21,317 nt of DNA. Source: a virus. The DNA is taken from positions 1 to 21,317 of IMG/VR virus record IMGVR_UViG_3300027747_000142. One strand, 5' to 3'. Position 1 is the first letter of the stretch; each line of letters begins with the position of its first letter. A model generated the notes under the pieces. It was not told where the DNA came from and made no database searches. It saw nothing but the letters and a program-made list of their open reading frames with translations. The translations under genes were made by a program, and so were the position numbers. Shown here piece by piece: positions 1,859-21,006 of the stretch.

Positions 1859-2761
1859 TTATTTTGTGTAATGAATACGGATTGGGTACTTGTCAGCCAA
1901 CTTTAACGCTTCTTCATTGAGTCGCTGTTGGTACAAGGCGAAGATATAACGAGAGGCAGCTACGCCGGCAGTTGATGGAAGTTTTCCATCGTTTAGATCT
2001 GCCTCAGCACTAGAGAGATTGATTCGTCCAGCGTCAAGGTAAGACAATAATTTGTATGATGCTCCGAGTATGACAACATCTTTACAAGAATCAGGTAAGC
2101 CAGATACGTCAGCAAAATCATCTGTGTTGGCGTCAAGAGTGTTTGGCGTGGATGTGTACCATACTTGAACTGTACGACCAGGCTGTATTCCCTCATAAAT
2201 GTTAATTGTTTTCTGTGTATTAAAGGTAGCTGTATTTGCCATAGTATCTAAGCGCCAGCGATTTACTGGTAGCCATTCTTTACTAGAACCTGTAGTTTGC
2301 CAAGAAATAAACAAGACATCTTGAACATCATCTGGCAAAGCATAAGTAGTCTGAGATGCGTTAAAGGTAAATGTATAGGCAGAGGCAATCCAGAGCTTAG
2401 GATAGAAGCTATTGATTGTGTCGTTGATAGCCTTCTTGATTGTGCTGCGAGGAAAGGTAGGAGATAGAGTTACTTGTGCATACTGGGCGTGAGGTGCTGC
2501 AGTTGTTCCCTGATAGCCACGTCCAAAGCCTGGTATGACGTTAAGAGTGTTGCTTGCTGTAGTAAAAGAATCAATCCAAATAAGTTCATCGTCAATTTCA
2601 ATAACACCTTTAGCAAGGTTATTACTAGATCCAACAGTAATAGCAGTGCTAGTGGTGGTTAGACCAGCAGCGTTGGCAACATAAGTAATGCGGTCTTGAC
2701 GCAGGGCGTAGCCTTGCAGGTTAGCCCGTACTTCATCAACCATCTCATTTAACGTTGGCAT
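1859..2761 (-). CDS. Head-tail connector / adaptor-like protein, 300 aa
   Basis: ATG at 2761-2759 overlaps the glycosyltransferase stop as TAATG, with GAGG five bases upstream. The protein starts MPTLNEMVDEVRANLQGY, a helical opening typical of phage adaptor proteins. It then carries a small beta domain around residues 35-100 (EIDDELIWIDSF and RGYQGTTAAPHAQ) and a helix with IKKAINDTINSFYPKLW. Next comes a beta region with YALPDDVQDVLFISW and a long helical C-terminus (ASRYIFALYQQRLNEEALKLADKYP). This layout matches the broad class of portal-ring or tail-tube adaptors in short-tailed phages. The role of joining portal to tail machinery is inferred from the family-like architecture. I cannot distinguish an adaptor from a tubular tail protein without structural comparison. 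Confidence 0.65.
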   Translation of the reverse strand: MPTLNEMVDEVRANLQGYALRQDRITYVANAAGLTTTSTAITVGSSNNLAKGVIEIDDELIWIDSFTTASNTLNVIPGFGRGYQGTTAAPHAQYAQVTLSPTFPRSTIKKAINDTINSFYPKLWIASAYTFTFNASQTTYALPDDVQDVLFISWQTTGSSKEWLPVNRWRLDTMANTATFNTQKTINIYEGIQPGRTVQVWYTSTPNTLDANTDDFADVSGLPDSCKDVVILGASYKLLSYLDAGRINLSSAEADLNDGKLPSTAGVAASRYIFALYQQRLNEEALKLADKYPIRIHYTK

Positions 2762-3822
2762 TATTTCCTCTCATACCAGCCATCTCCCCATAGAGTTAGC
2801 AGTCGTGCAAAGTATTGTTCGTATTGTGGTCCTATAGCATCTAGTGAGTACAACGCTACTGCTCTCTTATGTATTGCTACTGGGTCTAGGTCCTTTACCC
2901 ACTCTGTAGCTACTGCAAACTCCATTGCATTTCTGCAACGATATCCAGTAACACCTTGTGGATTAGTCTCTGTAAACGCTCCCCAGTCTGTGGTAATTGT
3001 TGGAGTTCCACAGGTCTGTGCTTCGATAACTACATTACCAAAAGGTTCTATGTATAGCGTTGGAGCAAATAGGGCAATTGCACCGCCCATTAACTTTGCT
3101 CGTTCTTCTGCTCCTACTGGTCCTACCCATTCACCATACTCAATCTTGGGATCTTTACCAGGTCCTGCCATAATAAGTTTAAGCCCAAGTTCTTTACAAA
3201 CGTGTTGAGCAACAACTAAGCCTTTGCGATCTACCATACGTCCAACGTATAAGTAATAATCTTCTTTCTTTTCTTGCAGCGGAAACATCTCTGGTTCTAA
3301 GTAACCAGGAATAACCGCATCATAGAAGTTGCCATCTACTAGCGTAGGGTTCTTAAACATTGCATAGATACTGTGCATCCAAGCGTATGATTCAAAGACT
3401 TTGTACTTACTAAATACTCCACCATAGCCAACACCAAACTCTACGCTAATGTGATTTGGATAAGCCTTAGCAATAGGTTCTTGTGATGCTCCACCGATAA
3501 GACAAATAAAATCTTTCTTCTCTAGGCGCTTACCTAGTTCTTTAATGGCGTTGCCGTTAAAGATCTGCCAATGTGGTAGTTCATTATTAAACTCAGCTTC
3601 TGTAAAGTGTTTACCAGCTAATGCTTCTTGCTGTTGCTCTTTAGTAATACAAGTAATTAACTCATCACACGGAGCTTCGTTGTCTTCACTAGCATAAAGA
3701 TAGACCGTATGACCAAGGCTTTTCATCATTATACAAAAGCGTCTAACCTTTTCGGTATAGGCGCAGTTAACATACTCTTTAGTTGTCTGCGTATGGGGCA
3801 AACTAATAACGTGAAATCTCAT
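2761..3822 (-). CDS. GT4-family glycosyltransferase, 353 aa
   Basis: This is a GT-B-fold retaining glycosyltransferase of the GT4 type, which moves a sugar from a nucleotide-sugar donor to an acceptor. The N-terminal half is the less conserved acceptor domain. The donor domain starts near residue 188 with YYLYVGRMVDRKG, in which R195 and K200 sit where GT4 enzymes bind donor phosphates. The E-x7-E motif is present as E259 and E267 in YIEPFGNVVIEAQTCGTPTI. There is no signal peptide or membrane helix, so it acts in the infected cell's cytoplasm. The ATG at 3822-3820 has no clear Shine-Dalgarno sequence and follows the collagen-like gene's stop by nine bases, which suggests dependence on translation of that gene. 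The virion-gene context suggests modification of a particle protein; the acceptor is not shown by the sequence. Confidence 0.88.
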   Translation of the reverse strand: MRFHVISLPHTQTTKEYVNCAYTEKVRRFCIMMKSLGHTVYLYASEDNEAPCDELITCITKEQQQEALAGKHFTEAEFNNELPHWQIFNGNAIKELGKRLEKKDFICLIGGASQEPIAKAYPNHISVEFGVGYGGVFSKYKVFESYAWMHSIYAMFKNPTLVDGNFYDAVIPGYLEPEMFPLQEKKEDYYLYVGRMVDRKGLVVAQHVCKELGLKLIMAGPGKDPKIEYGEWVGPVGAEERAKLMGGAIALFAPTLYIEPFGNVVIEAQTCGTPTITTDWGAFTETNPQGVTGYRCRNAMEFAVATEWVKDLDPVAIHKRAVALYSLDAIGPQYEQYFARLLTLWGDGWYERK

Positions 3823-3831
3823 ACGAGAAGT

Positions 3832-5019
3832 CTACATACCGCCTAGGAACAAAGCTACGGGAATGGCATCTGCCCCAGGGCCTGTCGCACCAGTTGGACC
3901 TGTAGATCCTGTGACTCCAGTTGTACCTGTTACTCCTTGCGGTCCTGTTGCTCCTGTTGGCCCAGTCGCACCAGCAGGGCCAGTAGCCCCAGTAACGCCA
4001 GTGGCACCAGTAACACCAGTAGCACCAGTAGTTCCAGTAACACCTTGTGGTCCAGTAGCACCTGTTGGTCCAGTTGAACCTGTTGGTCCAACTAAATTAA
4101 CCCCAGCAGGCCAAGTGCCTGCTGCTTTAGGTCCAAAGATTTTATTGCTAGTAGTGTTAATGTAGAAATCACCATTGACACCTTGGGTTGTAGGATCAAC
4201 TGTTCCGTTAAGAACTGTATATCCAGCAACACCTGTAGGTCCTGTTGCACCAGTTGCACCTGCTGGACCTGTTGCCCCAACGGGTCCTGTAGCCCCTGTA
4301 GGCCCTGTAGCACCCGTTACTCCAGTAGGTCCAACAGTTCCAGTTACACCTTGTGTACCAGTGGCTCCTACGGGACCTGTTGCTCCAGTGGGACCAACTA
4401 GGTTAACTCCAGCAGGCCAAACGCCTGCTGCCTTTGGACCAAAAATCTTATTAGTTGCGGTGTTGATATAGAAGTCACCGTTAACTCCTTGAGTAGTTGG
4501 GTCTACTATGCCGTTAAGAACCGTGTAACCAGCAACGCCAGTTGCACCTGTAGCACCAGTAACTCCTACAGGGCCTGTGGCACCTGTGGCACCTTGTGGG
4601 CCAGTCGCTCCCGTAGGTCCTGTCGCACCAACTGCTCCTGTCGTTCCAGTTGCTCCAGCTGGTCCCGTAGATCCAGTAACTCCCGTGACTCCTGTAGCGC
4701 CAACAGGTCCTGTCGCACCTGTTGCTCCCGCTGGACCCGTTGCTCCTGCAGGGCCTGTGGCGCCTGTAGTTCCAGTAGCACCCGTGGTACCCGTTGGGCC
4801 AGTCGGCCCAGTACTTCCTGTAACACCTGTTGCTCCTATCGAACCAGTAGCGCCAGTTACACCTGTTGCACCTGTAGCACCGTTTGGTCCTGTTGCTCCC
4901 GCAGGACCAGAAGGTCCCGTCGGTCCAGTGGCACCTTGACCACCTTGTGGTCCTTGATCTTGCGAAAACTCTACCGCTACTTGCGGCGTAATGTTTTCAA
5001 TAACAATTATTGTGCTCAT
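3832..5019 (-). CDS. Collagen-like virion fibre protein, 395 aa
   Basis: ATG at 5019-5017 overlaps the upstream stop (ATGA). After a short N-terminus ([18 protein letters not shown]), residues about 23-162 are uninterrupted Gly-X-Y triplets, mainly GAT, GPT, GVT and GPA. Two more collagen blocks follow (about 209-264 and 311-382). The blocks are separated by two nearly identical 45-residue spacers (164-208 and 266-310) containing [22 protein letters not shown] and IFGPKAAG. This spacer type is known from bacterial and phage collagen-like proteins. The last residues are [12 protein letters not shown]. The protein should form a trimeric rod with two globular knots. Threonine in the Y position is a common O-glycosylation site in bacterial collagens such as BclA, and a glycosyltransferase follows directly. 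It is probably a fibre on the particle surface. Confidence 0.9.
4091..4230 (-). repeat. Collagen spacer repeat, copy B (C-terminal copy)
   Basis: This stretch encodes the second non-collagen spacer of the collagen-like protein. It is repeated in frame 306 bases (102 codons) away at 4397-4536. The protein copies are nearly identical, while third codon positions differ often, so the duplication is not recent or is kept by selection on the protein. Confidence 0.85.
4397..4536 (-). repeat. Collagen spacer repeat, copy A (N-terminal copy)
   Basis: This is the partner of the repeat at 4091-4230 and encodes the first spacer. Between the two protein copies I see a handful of substitutions (for example I/T after LNG, TA/TS before NK, V/T before WP), against many silent changes in the DNA. 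Confidence 0.85.
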
Positions 5020-5357
5020 ACAGTCACAGCTCCTGTCACAATAAATTTGCCTTCAAGATATCTAGTAACTGTTACACCAGATGTAAGTATTAGGTCATAT
5101 GAATAACGACCAGCACTAATAGCACCTGTAATTGTGGCACTGAGTGTAACTGTGACACGACCATTTGTTGCATCAAAGACCATATAACCATTGTCAGTAG
5201 ATGCCACTACAGTTGTAGTAGATGCGCCCACAAATGGGCGCACTGTCATAGTGCCTGTATAACCATTTAGATTTACAGGAGTATTATTTTCGAGTATTTG
5301 AAACTGAAAATTAAATGTAGTGGCTTGGTCACAGACCAGATTATATTTAGCACTCAA
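5016..5357 (-). CDS. Ig-like/BppU-N-like structural protein, 113 aa
   Basis: I place the start at TTG 5357-5355 because it overlaps the preceding stop (TTGA) and gives an N-terminus of the form [15 protein letters not shown], which looks like the usual start of this protein type. An in-frame ATG at 5420 would add 21 residues inside the upstream gene and has no good ribosome site. The sequence is beta-rich: [16 protein letters not shown], then [13 protein letters not shown], then [12 protein letters not shown] and a final [10 protein letters not shown]. This pattern resembles the N-terminal domain of baseplate upper proteins and small Ig-like proteins found in phage tail regions. Its 3' end overlaps the collagen-like gene by four bases, so the two are probably made in a fixed ratio and may assemble together. 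Confidence 0.7.
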
Positions 5358-5638
5358 GATGAGATCGCTCTGAGAGCCTGCGCTGCAGGTAACTGAGTAG
5401 TGCCAGCGAGAGCGTTGCATACGCCATTAAAATCAAGGCGATTAGTGCTAGTCGTGCCTTGAATCGCATTGAGTACTCCCACCGTGTCTGTTAAATTTGT
5501 TGTTACTGATTTTAAGACTGCCCATTGGCGAGCAGCCAAGGCTTGTCCTACCATCGCACCTGGTACTCGATAGGTGCCACCATTAGCTAAACGATTAAGT
5601 TCATCTAATAGCGTTGTTCCTGCTACTCCTAGTGCCAC
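5354..5638 (-). CDS. Small conserved hypothetical phage protein, 94 aa
   Basis: The GTG start at 5638-5636 has a strong AAGGAG six bases upstream, which decides the start. The protein begins MALGVAGTTLLDELNRLANGG and continues TYRVPGAMVGQALAARQWA; the second half is mixed helix with NAIQGTTSTNRLDFNGVCNAL. It is alanine-rich, has one cysteine, and lacks membrane or catalytic motifs. I do not recognise a named domain. It shares a four-base overlap with the next gene and lies between the tiny-gene cluster and the fibre genes, so a minor structural role is possible but not shown. Confidence 0.7.
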   Translation of the reverse strand: MALGVAGTTLLDELNRLANGGTYRVPGAMVGQALAARQWAVLKSVTTNLTDTVGVLNAIQGTTSTNRLDFNGVCNALAGTTQLPAAQALRAISS

Positions 5639-5649
5639 CTATATCTCCT

Positions 5650-5814
5650 TTACTTCTTCTTGGTTTTCTTTGCTGCAGCGTTATCTACTAGATTTGGATA
5701 TGGTCGTCCTGCTGCTTTTGCTCTTGCCTTAGCTGCAGATTTCTGAGCTGGCGTTAGAGGTGTTGACTTCTTGTTAGGATTCTTTGTATCCCAAAATGCT
5801 ACTTTCTTTTTCAC
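5650..5814 (-). CDS. Small lysine-rich protein, 54 aa
   Basis: The GTG at 5814-5812 is the best start: AAGGGG lies six bases upstream, and GTGA overlaps the stop of the cysteine-rich gene at 5811-5909. An ATG at 5853 also has an SD-like AAAGG and would give 67 aa with a long overlap. The mature sequence is very basic: it opens with a KKK run, contains DTKNPNKKSTPLTPAQKSAAKARAKAAGR in broken form (residues about 8-37), and ends AAAKKTKKK. There is no cysteine. Such composition suggests nucleic-acid binding or charge neutralisation during packaging, as inferred for other small basic phage proteins. The function is unproven. Confidence 0.65.
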   Translation of the reverse strand: MKKKVAFWDTKNPNKKSTPLTPAQKSAAKARAKAAGRPYPNLVDNAAAKKTKKK

Positions 5815-5909
5815 TTTTTTCCCCTTGCGTTTTTGCAGGTAGAACAGGTGCATTTACAACCCTTTTGAGGATTGCCTGCTTTACATTTGCATTTACATTT
5901 AGCACACAT
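5811..5909 (-). CDS. Tiny cysteine-rich, metallothionein-like protein, 32 aa
   Basis: The 32-residue reading frame has eight cysteines at positions 2, 5, 7, 9, 18, 20, 22 and 25. Spacing is CxxCxCxC, eight residues, then CxCxCxxC, a mirror-symmetric arrangement. Most residues between the cysteines are lysine, and the tail is NARGKK. Both ends fit the operon exactly: ATG at 5909-5907 shares a base with the upstream TAA (TAATG), and TGA at 5813-5811 overlaps the GTG of the next gene (GTGA). AAAGG lies nine bases upstream. Clusters of CxC and CxxC with no histidine or bulky hydrophobics are typical of metallothioneins, which bind Zn, Cu(I) or Cd by thiolates. With such high lysine content it could also touch nucleic acid. 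Metal binding is inferred from composition; I know of no named family for it. Confidence 0.72.
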   Translation of the reverse strand: MCAKCKCKCKAGNPQKGCKCTCSTCKNARGKK

Positions 5910-6211
5910 TATTTTTTGCCTTTATTCCTTTTAGAAATGGCTGCAGCCTTAGACTTGGCATCAGCTTTAGATGATGCACCCCAGGCTTGTAAAGATAATA
6001 GTAATCTGGTTGGCTCTCCATTAGGCTTGCGTTCAGGTCCTGGGTTACCAGCAGCGCGAGCAAGGTAACTTGCTCTACGTGGGTTATCGCCAGATTTAAC
6101 AGGTGCTTTAATATCTTGACCTGCAGCCTTTAATGAGGCGCGGCCTTTTGCATTAAGTCCACCTTTAGGGTTTTGTCCTTCTTTGCGTTGCCACGCTGGA
6201 GTCTTTGCCAT
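5909..6211 (-). CDS. Small basic conserved protein (DUF6321-like), 100 aa
   Basis: ATG at 6211-6209 directly abuts the upstream stop (TAAATG). The sequence matches a conserved small family found in many phage and some bacterial genomes: AWQRKEGQNPKGGLNAKGRA near the start, APVKSGDNPRRASYLARAAG in the middle, and GEPTRLLLSLQAWGASSKAD before a lysine-rich tail. I believe this is the DUF6321 type, but the number is from memory. Conserved GG-N-KGR, SGDNPRR and AWGAS motifs are all intact and the length is normal. The many Arg, Lys and Gly residues suggest RNA or DNA contact. Molecular function is not known. It forms part of a coupled block of tiny genes. Confidence 0.82.
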   Translation of the reverse strand: MAKTPAWQRKEGQNPKGGLNAKGRASLKAAGQDIKAPVKSGDNPRRASYLARAAGNPGPERKPNGEPTRLLLSLQAWGASSKADAKSKAAAISKRNKGKK

Positions 6212-6388
6212 TTACTTCTTCTTACCCATTTTCTTATTAGATATTTTTGCCTCAGATAATGCAATAGCAACTGCTTGCTTTCTATTAGTTACTACTGGAC
6301 CTTTTTTAGATCCTGAATGGAGCATCCCACCCTTAAATTCGTGCATAACTTTTTGGACTTTAGCATTACCCTTAGTCTTCTTTTTCAT
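6212..6388 (-). CDS. Small basic conserved protein (DUF6496-like), 58 aa
   Basis: ATG at 6388-6386 shares a base with the upstream TAA (TAATG), and the TAA stop abuts the next ATG. The protein opens MKKKTKGNAKVQKVMHEFKG, continues GSKKGPVVTNRKQAVAIALS and ends with NKKMGKKK. The core VMHEFK...SGSKKGP.V.NRKQA.AIALSEA is a pattern I recognise from a widespread small family, which I recall as DUF6496; the number is from memory. The RKQAIAIALSEA segment looks like a short DNA-binding or interaction helix. The function is unknown in all members I can recall. Its position beside other lysine-rich tiny genes fits a shared role, perhaps in genome condensation. Confidence 0.82.
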   Translation of the reverse strand: MKKKTKGNAKVQKVMHEFKGGMLHSGSKKGPVVTNRKQAVAIALSEAKISNKKMGKKK

Positions 6389-6525
6389 TATTTAGCAGCC
6401 TTACCCATCGCACCTGTTTGTAGTTCTTCATAAGTTTCGTACTTGAGGTTACTTGGGTATTGCTTATCTGCTGGTGGGTAGACAAGATTATTTATGTCTG
6501 TTGTTAATTCTTTGTTGTTATTCAT
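6388..6525 (-). CDS. Small hypothetical protein, 45 aa
   Basis: ATG at 6525-6523 lies two bases after the upstream stop and has AAAGG nine bases before it; the TAA overlaps the next ATG by one base. The protein starts MNNNKELTTDINNLVYPPAD and ends LQTGAMGKAAK, with tyrosine-rich NLKYETYEEL in the middle. Unlike its neighbours it is not strongly basic. I do not recognise it. The exact fit between two coupled neighbours is the main support for its being real. Confidence 0.65.
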   Translation of the reverse strand: MNNNKELTTDINNLVYPPADKQYPSNLKYETYEELQTGAMGKAAK

Positions 6526-6527
6526 TA

Positions 6528-6719
6528 TTACTTGCCTTTCTTCATAGCGGAGTTTTTCATTGCTTTACCATTAGGCATCTTGTGCATACCTTGTTTTACT
6601 TCTTTGGCTTTTTGTGCTTTGGTTTCGCCCTTTTTAAGTTCTTTCTTTTTCATTGCTTTTGGTTCTGTTTTTTCGTAGGCTGCATAAGCCTTCATCATCT
6701 TAGGTGACATCTTTGCCAT
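6528..6719 (-). CDS. Small lysine/methionine-rich protein, 63 aa
   Basis: ATG at 6719-6717 is preceded by AAGGAG with eight bases of spacing. About a third of the residues are lysine, and methionine is unusually frequent: MAKMSPKMMKAYAAYEK at the start, a KKKELKKGETKAQKAKE stretch in the middle and NSAMKKGK at the end. There are no cysteines, and the sequence is probably helical or disordered. It resembles the 46-aa protein at 17224-17364 in composition, though not in sequence order. Binding to nucleic acid or to an acidic scaffold is plausible from charge alone. No known domain is visible. Confidence 0.72.
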   Translation of the reverse strand: MAKMSPKMMKAYAAYEKTEPKAMKKKELKKGETKAQKAKEVKQGMHKMPNGKAMKNSAMKKGK

Positions 6720-6724
6720 TATTA

Positions 6725-6997
6725 TTACTCCTTAAAGGTCATTGAGATTCCATCGAAAGCCTTACCAGCTTCGTTGGAAAGTTTAACTGCTGCATCTATA
6801 TCTTTGCTTTTTGTTGAACGTGGTTCTATGCCTTGTCTTGTAGCATCATAATAAGATTGTAGTTCCTTATCGTGTTGCTTAGCAGTAGGTATACCTCTGT
6901 GGTTTGCCACGCCTACGCTCAACTCTAGTTCTCCTACTTTGCAACCAAAGCAGTCTTCAACATACTCAAGATGCGTGGTGCGTCTATGTAAACTCAT
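6725..6997 (-). CDS. Conserved small phage protein with possible zinc site, 90 aa
   Basis: The start is ATG 6997-6995, overlapping the upstream TGA (ATGA); an in-frame start at 7012 lacks this fit. The N-terminus reads MSLHRRTTHLEYVEDCFGCK, giving H4, H9, C16 and C19, which could form one zinc site. The rest is a charged region with KQHDKELQSYYDATRQGIEP and KSKDIDAAVKLSNEAGKAFD, ending MTFKE. I recognise this combination (HxEYVExCFGCK near the start, AGKA(F/Y)D near the end) from small proteins near the capsid genes of actinobacteriophages, which supports an actinobacterial host. No experimental function is known to me. Metal binding is inferred from the ligand pattern. Confidence 0.78.
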   Translation of the reverse strand: MSLHRRTTHLEYVEDCFGCKVGELELSVGVANHRGIPTAKQHDKELQSYYDATRQGIEPRSTKSKDIDAAVKLSNEAGKAFDGISMTFKE

Positions 6998-7317
6998 ACG
7001 GCAGTTAACCAACTTCCGTATCCTGCAGCTGTTAATACCCCTGCTTGGTAATCACTAATAACATATTCGTGACCACCAAGGAAATAATAACTAGCTGCTG
7101 CTAGATCATCTTGGTTTGGAGTCATAGTAATAGTTACTGTAGTTCCATTAACAATTAAAGTCTGACCTCTTGCTACATCTGTAAGGCTAATTGGAATAGA
7201 ACCGTCAATAGTGCCCCCATTAAAGCGACGCCCAGCAAGACGTGAGTACTTGGTGTTTTCACCACGACCAGCGCCCCAAGTTTGCCACTCGTAAGGAGTC
7301 ATTAACTTATATGCCAT
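6994..7317 (-). CDS. Small conserved hypothetical protein near capsid, 107 aa
   Basis: ATG 7317-7315 has AAAGG six bases upstream; a TTG two codons earlier would sit on the ribosome site, so I reject it. The protein starts MAYKLMTPYEWQTWGAGRGE, followed by a beta-rich middle (IPISLTDVARGQTLIVNGTT, VTITMTPNQDDL) and a C-terminus with YYFLGGHEYVISDYQAGVL. It could be a head-completion or decoration protein, because it is the first gene after the major capsid gene and a stem-loop. I do not recognise a named family. It ends by overlapping the next start by four bases. Confidence 0.72.
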   Translation of the reverse strand: MAYKLMTPYEWQTWGAGRGENTKYSRLAGRRFNGGTIDGSIPISLTDVARGQTLIVNGTTVTITMTPNQDDLAAASYYFLGGHEYVISDYQAGVLTAAGYGSWLTAV

Positions 7318-7380: not shown

Positions 7381-8562
7381 TTATCCGTTTGTTGCGGCTG
7401 ACTCAATGCGATAGAGCGCAGCTTCACGAAGGCGTGCAAAGCCTCCGAAGTAGTACCAACCGATTGTGCGGAAACGACGTAGTGCGTCAATCTCTGGACC
7501 GATAACGGTTGAGATGTCTGCAGCTTGTGCTTCAGCCAATGCTTCACGACCAGCGACGATTGCGCGGTAGTTGTTAGTAAATGTTACAGTACCTGTGTCA
7601 GCAACTGATGTGATATTAGATGCTGTCAATGAGTATGTAAATGTTGTTGTTGATGGTACAGACGCAAGTGTGTATGTACCGTTAACTCCAGTGTTAGTTG
7701 TAGCAGCAACTGTTACAATCTGACCTGTACCAAGACCGTGAGCAACTGCTGTAGTAATTGTTACTACGTTAGATGTCAAAGCAACGTTGGTGATAGTTGT
7801 TGTAGTTGAGATACCAGCAGCTAACTTTAGACCGTTAAGAACACGTGGTGTCTCAACGATGAAAGCGCCTTCAATCACGCCTACTGCACCAGCAACGAAC
7901 GGTGTACGCTCAACGTACTTTGTTAGTTCCTGGAAGCCACCTGTACCAGTTTCAGCACGAAGATCGGCTGACTGACGTGGGTGTAGGTATGCAGCATATA
8001 GTTCGCCCATACGAGGCAATGCCTTGTTTGTGCGTAGTGATACAACAGCGTTGCGGATATCCGCAACTGTCATTGTGTCTCCTGATAGAATTGCAGATGA
8101 TGCAGTTGGAGTAGTTCCTGATGGACCGTTTGAGTAGATCACGTTAGTTCCTGCTGACAGGACCTGACCTACAACGTTGTCAATAGAATCTGCTGCGTTG
8201 TAAGCGATGATGTCAGCAAGAGCTGAATCAACATCGTTAAATGAAGTTAGGTTTAACTTCTTTGTTGTTGTAACTGCTGAACCGTATTCGTTCAGTGTTA
8301 CTGTAACCTGTGAAGGGTTACCTAATGCAATGGAAGATACATCTGAAGTTTCTGTCAATGTAGAAGTGGCTTGTGCCAAGTCTGAATAGATTGAGAAAAC
8401 AACTGATGATCCTGGCATTGCCTGTTGCACTGGCTTGACGTCGGCAAGTGAACGCATAACAGGAATGGAGCGAAGCGCCATTCTTACATACTGGTCGTAT
8501 GCTGCTTGTACGAGGTTGCTGATCGTCGAGCTAGAGGTGGGGGTACCTGTTGGAATTGCCAC
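7381..8562 (-). CDS. Major capsid protein, N4-gp56-like, with inserted beta domain (393 aa)
   Basis: The GTG start at 8562-8560 has AAAGG ten bases upstream. The shell-forming part has features of N4-gp56-type capsid proteins (HK97-like fold): YDQYVRMALRSIPVMRSLAD at residues 22-41, MPGSSVVFSIYSDL at 49-62, VTVTLNEYGSAVTTTKKLNL at 86-105, and a C-terminal PEIDALRRFRTIGWYYFGGF at 356-375. Residues about 252-329 interrupt this core with a T/V/S-rich segment including VAHGLGTGQIVTV and GTYTLASVPSTTTFTY, a beta sandwich-like module found elsewhere in phage virion proteins. The core resumes with NYRAIVAGREALAEAQ. The insert probably projects from the capsid surface. The preceding gene is the scaffold, as is usual. 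The assignment is firm at family level from motifs and gene order. Confidence 0.87.
   Translation of the reverse strand: MAIPTGTPTSSSTISNLVQAAYDQYVRMALRSIPVMRSLADVKPVQQAMPGSSVVFSIYSDLAQATSTLTETSDVSSIALGNPSQVTVTLNEYGSAVTTTKKLNLTSFNDVDSALADIIAYNAADSIDNVVGQVLSAGTNVIYSNGPSGTTPTASSAILSGDTMTVADIRNAVVSLRTNKALPRMGELYAAYLHPRQSADLRAETGTGGFQELTKYVERTPFVAGAVGVIEGAFIVETPRVLNGLKLAAGISTTTTITNVALTSNVVTITTAVAHGLGTGQIVTVAATTNTGVNGTYTLASVPSTTTFTYSLTASNITSVADTGTVTFTNNYRAIVAGREALAEAQAADISTVIGPEIDALRRFRTIGWYYFGGFARLREAALYRIESAATNG
7576..7809 (-). other. Segment coding for the inserted beta domain of the capsid protein
   Basis: These bases encode capsid residues about 252-329. The composition (Thr, Val, Ser, Ala, almost no charge) differs sharply from both flanks, and the flanking sequences read as a continuous capsid core if the segment is removed. 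The boundaries are estimated by eye. Confidence 0.6.
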
Positions 8563-19146: not shown

Positions 19147-21006
19147 TTAGATGAATGTGCGATCTTTTTCTGCAAGCAGTTCATCTATGTTGATAACTGT
19201 TCGCTTGCCTACCTCACTACGAGATAGAAATGGATTCTTCATATGGTGTGTCTTGTGCATACCTTGGTTGAGCATCTCACGTGCTCTGATCTCACAAAAC
19301 CAAAGAGCCATTACCATATCGGTTTTACCCTTAGTAGTTGGTGACCACGTAATCAATTGCTCAATGAGCGCCTTGATGTTTTCAGTCTGGTCAGAAGGTA
19401 AGTGAATAAGGTTGTCGCGGTGGTGTTTGTTGTCAAATTGTTTTGTGCCGAACAAGGTAGACATAGAAGCAACACCAAAACCGGAGTCCCACTTGTTGTT
19501 ACCTGTATGGTGTTCTCGCAGTAACACACCCCTAGAGGCAAGGTTTGCGCGGATGCCCTCATCTTGCGTAAGGAATGATTGAAAAGCATTCTTCTCTACT
19601 ATCCACTCACTCGGTGAGTACAGGGTAGTCCAGTCAAAGATTAACTGACGGATCGCAGCAGGCGTTGGCCTAGTAATTTTAATAGCATCAACAATGTAGC
19701 GTTTATGTGTAGCCCTATCAACAGCATAACAAACGACGGCTGTATCACCAACCATAGCGGGATCAAGACCACAAATAAAACTAAAGCCGTTGACATCACG
19801 TGGATGACCTGGGTTACCAGGAACCAACCGACCTGCTTTACGCATACCATCTATAGAACCTCGCACACATACTGGATCAAAGATGGCATCATCTGAGATG
19901 TCTTGCTGCTGGTAAACTAACGCCCAAGTACTTGCATCCATAGCTTGGCGTTCATTGTAAAGGTTGCGACCATTCCAACGTGGGTATAGGCCATCTTCAT
20001 CTAAATCTGATTCTACTTGTCCATCAAATGGGGCATCTGATGCAGGCCACAGAGTTTCCCACTTGTCGGGATCATTGTCTGTGGTCAGTAGAGCTGGCAT
20101 TGCAAGGTAGGTCCAAGGGACTTGTCCACCAGGGTAGCGGTCTTCGGAGCGCAGCTCTTTGTATAAATCTACTGCAGAGACACGCGTACCAATAATAATC
20201 AATTTACCAGTAGGGTTCAAACGAGAGCGCACATCCTGGGTTAACCAGCGGATTTGTTTCTCAAACTCATTAGCGTTCTTTAAGGTAACGGCGTCATCTA
20301 CAATAATCATATCGGCACGCTTACCGTAGATTTGACCGCCGATACCAACGGCTTCGATGTTCGGGTCTTTTTCAGATGACTCACGTAGCTCATCACCAAA
20401 GGTGACACGGGTAGCCTGCCACGAGGCTGACTTAGAGTTAAACCCTACGCCAGCAGCGTAAGCCTGTTGGAGTGCTTCATAATTTGGATGAGTCAGGCGT
20501 TGCTTGATGGCGTAGAGAAAGTCGGCAGCTAACTGCTGCGTTTGAGATACGATGAGTACTCTAAAGTTAGGGTTTTGACAAACCTGCCAAGTAACGTAAT
20601 CAATGGTCACGGTCATAGACTTGGCGTGGTTGGGCGGAATGTTCAAAAGGATTCTGTTATTAGCCAGACCCTTTTCAAACTTCATACTAGGGTGTAACCA
20701 CCCAGGCTCTCTACCTTCAATTACATCTATTAGGTTCTGCTGGTGGGCAAAGGTGCGGGAGTGTAGGTACTTCTGGCGGAACTCGGCAAAGGTCAGATCG
20801 TGAACATCGGATGCTGCAAAGCTCTTGTCTTTTAGACCAAGGCGTGTTCGGTCAACCTTGTCTGTAAAGATCTTGTCAGTGCGTCGGTAGTACTCGTAAG
20901 TCTTAATAGATTTACCGGCGGAGGCACAAGCTGCCTCAATGGTCATACCTTCAGCAACACAACCAAGGATAATTCTCTTAGCGATGTCGGCACTATTGTC
21001 AGCCAC
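19147..21006 (-). CDS. terL: Terminase large subunit with N-terminal HTH, 619 aa
   Basis: The GTG start at 21006-21004 has AGGAG five bases upstream. It is the ATP-driven DNA-packaging motor and nuclease. The ATPase domain has a Walker A-like IPPNHAKS at residues 123-130, Walker B IIVDD at 234-238 and a GTR coupling motif at 273-275. The RNase H-like nuclease domain shows likely metal ligands D415 (CGLDPAMVGD), E471 (WIVEKNAF) and D563 (KGKTDMVMAL). Residues about 1-60 are an extra helix-turn-helix (TIEAACASAGKSIKTYEYYR) of the kind found in small terminase subunits. Walker A is therefore unusually far into the protein. No separate small-terminase gene is seen in the window, so the fused domain may recognise phage DNA. 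The packaging role is firm; the HTH role is inferred. Confidence 0.95.
   Translation of the reverse strand: MADNSADIAKRIILGCVAEGMTIEAACASAGKSIKTYEYYRRTDKIFTDKVDRTRLGLKDKSFAASDVHDLTFAEFRQKYLHSRTFAHQQNLIDVIEGREPGWLHPSMKFEKGLANNRILLNIPPNHAKSMTVTIDYVTWQVCQNPNFRVLIVSQTQQLAADFLYAIKQRLTHPNYEALQQAYAAGVGFNSKSASWQATRVTFGDELRESSEKDPNIEAVGIGGQIYGKRADMIIVDDAVTLKNANEFEKQIRWLTQDVRSRLNPTGKLIIIGTRVSAVDLYKELRSEDRYPGGQVPWTYLAMPALLTTDNDPDKWETLWPASDAPFDGQVESDLDEDGLYPRWNGRNLYNERQAMDASTWALVYQQQDISDDAIFDPVCVRGSIDGMRKAGRLVPGNPGHPRDVNGFSFICGLDPAMVGDTAVVCYAVDRATHKRYIVDAIKITRPTPAAIRQLIFDWTTLYSPSEWIVEKNAFQSFLTQDEGIRANLASRGVLLREHHTGNNKWDSGFGVASMSTLFGTKQFDNKHHRDNLIHLPSDQTENIKALIEQLITWSPTTKGKTDMVMALWFCEIRAREMLNQGMHKTHHMKNPFLSRSEVGKRTVINIDELLAEKDRTFI

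Follow-up and report, generated by a model that had tools for sequence, protein, structure and literature searches.

cys8, a previously unnamed family of tiny, strongly basic and probably metal-binding proteins from uncultured viruses, probably of aquatic actinobacteria

The eight-cysteine gene and its neighbors

The window (the whole 21,317-nucleotide stretch of a virus record from IMG/VR that was analyzed here) encodes a 32-residue protein, MCAKCKCKCKAGNPQKGCKCTCSTCKNARGKK, on the minus strand from base 5909 to 5811. Its cysteines lie at positions 2, 5, 7, 9, 18, 20, 22 and 25, forming a CxxCxCxC motif, eight intervening residues and a CxCxCxxC motif. The plus-strand translation of 5811-5909 is unrelated to this protein. 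The ATG shares a base with the TAA that closes the DUF6321 gene (TAATG at 5909), and the stop codon is overlapped by the GTG of the phrog_34011 gene (GTGA at 5814), which is preceded by AAGGGG. The original prediction, made from the letters alone and naming no strand, of a real eight-cysteine frame that fits its neighbors at both ends thus agrees with the reading of the minus strand. We refer to the protein and its relatives as cys8. The features around the gene are:

5354-5638, minus: phrog_27452 protein, one of the two fixed flanks of the cassette (E=5e-31)
5650-5814, minus: lysine-rich 54-aa protein phrog_34011 (E=2e-27 over residues 1-54; relatives in 33 family loci)
5811-5909, minus: eight-cysteine microprotein, 32 aa, CxxCxCxC-x8-CxCxCxxC
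5909-6211, minus: DUF6321 basic protein, 100 aa (PF19846, E=4.2e-18; relatives in 32 family loci)
6212-6388, minus: DUF6496 lysine-rich protein, 58 aa (PF20106, E=1.9e-10)
6388-6525, minus: 45-aa cassette protein (from the ORF list; by eye like cluster 21 of other loci)
6528-6719, minus: Lys/Met-rich 63-aa cassette protein (from the ORF list; no family match)
6725-7000, minus: phrog_10483 protein, the other fixed flank (E=2e-19)
7381-8562, minus: major capsid protein (phrog_1357, E=4e-71; PF13252)
19147-21006, minus: large terminase (43-46% identical to the terminases of Streptomyces podophages (Beephvirinae) and of ct2KA10)

Phages of the window type carry a handful of small genes, most of them lysine-rich, between phrog_10483 and phrog_27452, and which genes these are differs from phage to phage. 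This variable cassette (window 5650-6719, minus strand) also occurs in loci L201, L231, L249, L248 and L456, with both flanks fixed. Its recurrent items are DUF6321, DUF6496, phrog_34011 and phrog_7595, which share the cassette, the size class and lysine richness with cys8 but lack the cysteine array and are unrelated to it in sequence. One cassette neighbor weakly resembles part of the 'minor head protein and DNA pilot' phrog_220 (E=1e-6). At 64 loci (L094, L103, L148 and others) the cassette carries lysine-rich microproteins of cluster 4, many of which start with MCxxCGCGKK; having CxxCxC only, these are possibly a reduced relative of cys8.

Elsewhere in the window, a collagen-like gene with Gly-x-Thr/Pro repeats (3832-5019, minus, 395 aa) follows a BppU_N-like gene and is common to relatives of the window type. 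A 353-aa protein that is glycosyltransferase-like by eye (2761-3822, minus) is encoded inside the tail gene region, and similar genes occur near the tail region in other loci of this type.

cys8 is a protein family

A DNA pattern that fixed the ATG and the eight TGY codons and left the central gap free between 12 and 42 bases matched at least 119 stretches in IMG/VR, where by our own arithmetic estimate well under one chance hit is expected. Among the matches listed, 106 are family members, all with a 24-nt gap and hence the 8-residue spacer; re-reading the loci showed that the few matches with other gap lengths are unrelated. An unrelated, extremely cysteine-rich frame that also matches the pattern (L132:6610-8000) carries CC/CxC runs over ~150 residues, after which its C-terminal region is more ordinary. 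With two further patterns the collection came to 165 loci, including a few duplicate contigs (for example L092 and L271), and to 121 distinct 25-codon cores.

The family has three forms. The solo form has 28-36 residues, a second form of 69-90 residues has a lysine-rich tail, and in the third cys8 is the N-terminal domain of proteins of 104-363 aa. Each of 25 long contigs carries exactly one copy. The start codon overlaps the stop of the upstream ORF by one base at 57 of the ~138 loci that have an upstream ORF on the same strand. One member (L440:10018-10278) is frameshifted after codon 19 and reads into the next gene, DUF6496, through either an assembly error or real decay.

A chance origin of the frame is ruled out by recurrence of the family, cysteine retention, dN/dS and simulation. 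A Markov simulation with the nearest-neighbor composition of the window yielded 34,497 open frames of 25-60 aa, of which none carried the motif and only seven had at least eight cysteines. Decisive is that the same pattern recurs, encoding a conserved protein, at over 160 further viral loci. The gene in the window is therefore a family member and not a singleton.

Selection and composition

Purifying selection on the cysteines, proposed beforehand as a check, is evident. Under a search pattern that left positions 5, 7, 9, 22 and 25 free, these were Cys in 505 of 505 cases (101 distinct sequences), with both codons in common use (73 TGT and 28 TGC at position 5) and exchanging freely. With a pattern leaving positions 18, 20, 22 and 25 free, 76 of 77 sequences retained all four cysteines, the exception being the frameshifted L440. 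Among 1,053 pairs that differ by at most 20%, pS was 0.566 and pN 0.052. The dN/dS is ~0.05 overall and ~0.11 when Cys codons are left out, ratios that are slightly low because part of the set was picked by patterns fixing some non-Cys codons. Entropy is about twofold higher at third codon positions (1.56) than at first and second positions (0.75).

Conservation extends beyond the cysteines. Gly17 is present in all members, Lys16 and Lys19 in ~90%, and the GKP loop is also conserved. Solo members consist of 24% Cys and 28% Lys and have no Phe, Trp, Tyr or His in 3,944 residues. The protein has a net charge of 9.8.

Genomic setting

Three unrelated virion types hold cys8 at the same place, between the capsid and the neck/tail genes, which bears out the earlier assignment to a virion module. 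The window type, with its phrog_1357 capsid, accounts for 27 loci. Sheath-bearing myophages account for 102; their tail sheath is 36% identical to those of Streptomyces phages BRock and GiJojo. The remaining type, capsid-E-type phages, contributes 14 loci, all with the fused form (104-363 aa), and has a capsid 41-45% identical to those of Roseobacter RDJL, Arthrobacter and Microbacterium phages. Overall, cys8 is placed in the structural module in ~143 of 165 loci. About a dozen loci have it elsewhere than between capsid and tail genes, or close to a Dps gene. Clusters at L180:10934-11863 and L397:1507-2711 are on the strand opposite to their neighbors and run in the order phrog_34011, cys8, a 74-aa probable membrane protein, phrog_7595 (in L397) and a Dps-like ferritin.

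Of the loci that have both cassette flanks, 21 carry cys8 and 40 do not, counts that are not a frequency as the loci were sampled through cassette genes. We consider cys8 an accessory gene, since syntenic phages often lack it. The expectation that related phages would keep the frame and its cysteines thus stands in part: the cysteines are kept where the gene is present, but the gene itself comes and goes.

Hosts and relatives

The hosts are probably actinobacteria. WhiB, which is described as restricted to actinobacteria (PMC6802176), is encoded on 22 of 25 long cys8 contigs tested. It also occurs on 15 of 24 control contigs, mostly those found via phrog_34011, and is absent from the 21-kb record that forms the window. 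For both the terminase and the capsid of the window, the nearest relatives are those of Caudovirales sp. ct2KA10 and of Streptomyces podophages.

A tblastn search with the 32-mer gave no match among phage isolates. The low-complexity filter probably masks this query, so regions of six isolate or isolate-like relatives were read directly with an HMM, and no cys8 was found in the regions checked. The 80-aa and 271-aa longer forms and the DNA of the Dps operon likewise had no match among phage records. We looked for a cellular origin with a pattern scan of genome contigs and rejected it: at least 116 stretches matched, and none of the matches listed is a family member. A search of 396 genomes from a single phylum, selected by way of an actinobacterial genome, returned one partial match (E=0.006, positions 8-31), which we take as chance.

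Comparison with known families

No entry for cys8 was found in the curated families searched, in keeping with the original prediction, which knew of no such protein in a phage virion module. The 61 members searched had no Pfam match at E<=10 and no convincing PHROG or NCBIfam match, and NCBIfam gave no metallothionein model, although HMMER's composition filter penalizes such sequences. PDB sequences (E<=10) and PADLOC gave no match. A weak match of one fused form to phrog_28167 was dropped, as phrog_28167 did not match the family loci.

By composition, cys8 falls within metallothioneins in the broad sense: it is small and cysteine-rich, has CxC and CxxC motifs and, in solo members, no aromatic residues. 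This part of the earlier description as metallothionein-like holds (24% Cys, 28% Lys, no aromatics or His), but searches of Pfam, NCBIfam and PDB found no sequence relationship to any metallothionein. SmtA of Synechococcus, the Pseudomonas metallothioneins and MymT resemble cys8 in being small and cysteine-rich with CxC/CxxC motifs. In SmtA a metal cluster is paired with a fold like that of a zinc finger (PMC10612145), and SmtA-like and Pseudomonas metallothioneins contain His, which can bind Zn (PMC7387436, PMC10612145). In contrast to these bacterial proteins, cys8 has only eight cysteines in a different spacing and no detectable sequence relationship, it is set in a phage virion module, and mixed His and Cys ligands of the SmtA kind are absent, as no solo member has a His. 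In the open literature searched, no phage metallothionein is described; the gene called 'metallothionein' in a paper on Pseudomonas phage Ab31 (PMC3974807) belongs to the host.

Archaeal C(P)XCG zinc-finger microproteins, some of which bind Zn and others another metal or none, are likewise very small with paired CxxC motifs (PMC11241148). They differ from cys8, which is phage-borne, lysine-rich and without CPxCG and has another four cysteines, arranged as CxC pairs. Its two CxxC sites do not both follow CxxCG, reading CAKCK and CSTCK in the window. Given no family match, no His and no C(P)XCG, we conclude that cys8 is a new phage family of microproteins of a metal-binding type. It could function in the manner of a metallothionein or small zinc finger, but it belongs to none of the families that could be tested.

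Predicted structure

The AF2 model of the window protein, built from 61 sequences, has a pLDDT of 84 and a pTM of only 0.47. It was examined for a zinc-ribbon or treble-clef fold, in which a knuckle, a hairpin and a helix hold four ligands in a tetrahedral array; it places a helix at residues 23-30 that starts inside the last CxxC, and bridge residues at 10/12. AF2 models do not reveal whether four cysteines are positioned to bind metal, and 5 of 14 predicted zinc-finger microproteins were zinc-free (PMC11241148). Foldseek found no PDB match for the model. Its sole BFVD match, A0A6J5RC25, covers 29 columns (TMq 0.76, 62% identity), with an E-value of 0.12 as expected for so short a query. This 61-aa uncharacterized protein of an uncultured Caudovirales phage is longer than the window protein and is probably a cys8 member deposited without annotation.

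Possible functions of cys8

In a basic peptide of 32 residues, eight cysteines that are invariant and closely paired are most naturally explained by metal-thiolate binding, and cys8 very probably binds metal. The ligands would most likely hold two Zn(II), or else a small Zn/Cu(I)-thiolate cluster. In the two-Zn(II) version, the nested CxxC-CxC-loop-CxC-CxxC arrangement would form an outer CxxC...CxxC site and an inner CxC...CxC site of four cysteines each, a geometry that we put forward tentatively. The metal would fold an otherwise featureless basic peptide (~+10) around a fixed GKP..KGCKC loop. A loose metal sponge explains the fixed 8-residue spacer, the invariant Gly17, the near-invariant Lys16/Lys19 and the occurrence of cys8 at the N terminus of longer proteins no better than a small, defined domain for metal binding does.

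A role in assembling the virion or within the particle is favored by the position and neighbors of the gene, the charge of the protein and the fused forms, and we consider its odds roughly even. The explanation that we prefer as a whole, with a probability of about 0.5, is a metal-folded actinophage microprotein with a late, nucleic-acid-contacting accessory role in virion assembly or inside the virion. It would be translated together with the other small lysine-rich proteins of the variable cassette between the capsid and the neck/tail genes. Association with the virion or its DNA, taken as a claim of its own, falls a little short of an even chance. A narrower version makes cys8 a protamine- or nucleocapsid-like member of a mix-and-match lysine-rich set packaged with or around actinophage DNA. 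Its Zn/thiolate chemistry would then both compact the DNA and shield it against damage by metal or peroxide, and the recurrent Dps neighbor would be accounted for; we hold this version to be unlikely.

Alternatively, cys8 could be a metallothionein-like buffer, made late and free in the host cytoplasm instead of part of the virion, that would sequester Zn/Cu or quench reactive oxygen and thereby let the DNA of the host or the progeny survive. Its metallothionein-like composition is consistent with this, and defense against reactive oxygen, including ferritin, has been proposed as a phage-borne function in freshwater phages (PMC6802176). The small operon in L180, in which cys8 stands between phrog_34011 and the genes for the 74-aa membrane protein and Dps, also fits, and a stress role is favored by the dozen or so loci with cys8 away from the capsid-tail interval or close to a Dps gene. 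Of 164 family loci, 11 have Dps/ferritin-like genes, against 1 among 159 control phage loci (Fisher p=0.006), but the controls are not matched for phage type, related loci inflate the count, and the effective number is smaller because there are only about four Dps lineages. The buffer is also at odds with the persistence of cys8 in the structural module, and a sponge would need neither so rigid a spacing nor such conservation outside the cysteines. We regard it as rather unlikely.

The two other readings are less probable still. A zinc-finger-like regulator could bind host RNA polymerase, the ribosome or nucleic acid and redirect the actinobacterial host, as phage small proteins often target host machinery (PMC11323111). 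A small, basic protein with two CxxC pairs and a predicted C-terminal helix after the last CxxC would suit this role, but cys8 is encoded among virion genes in most loci, is fused to long Gly-rich C-terminal regions in one lineage and resembled no regulator in the family searches, which makes such a function improbable. The absolute conservation of the cysteines and the placement of the gene next to capsid genes could also reflect a thiol/disulfide protein that cross-links capsid or cement proteins or acts as a redox agent without metal. The cytoplasm is reducing, though, and CxC and CxxC pairs in close tandem with interleaved lysines are typical of metal thiolates, so this reading appears very improbable.

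Significance

cys8 is a very short protein that is widespread in phages of aquatic actinobacteria and has no entry in the curated libraries searched. Should it bind Zn or Cu, it would be, as far as we know, the first metallothionein-like phage family, none having been found in the open literature searched, and one could then test whether phages place metal-thiolate proteins inside their virions or next to them. The lysine-rich cassette varies in content and keeps its position across unrelated virion types, and we found no paper on such a cassette. cys8 offers an entry point to the cassette as a whole.
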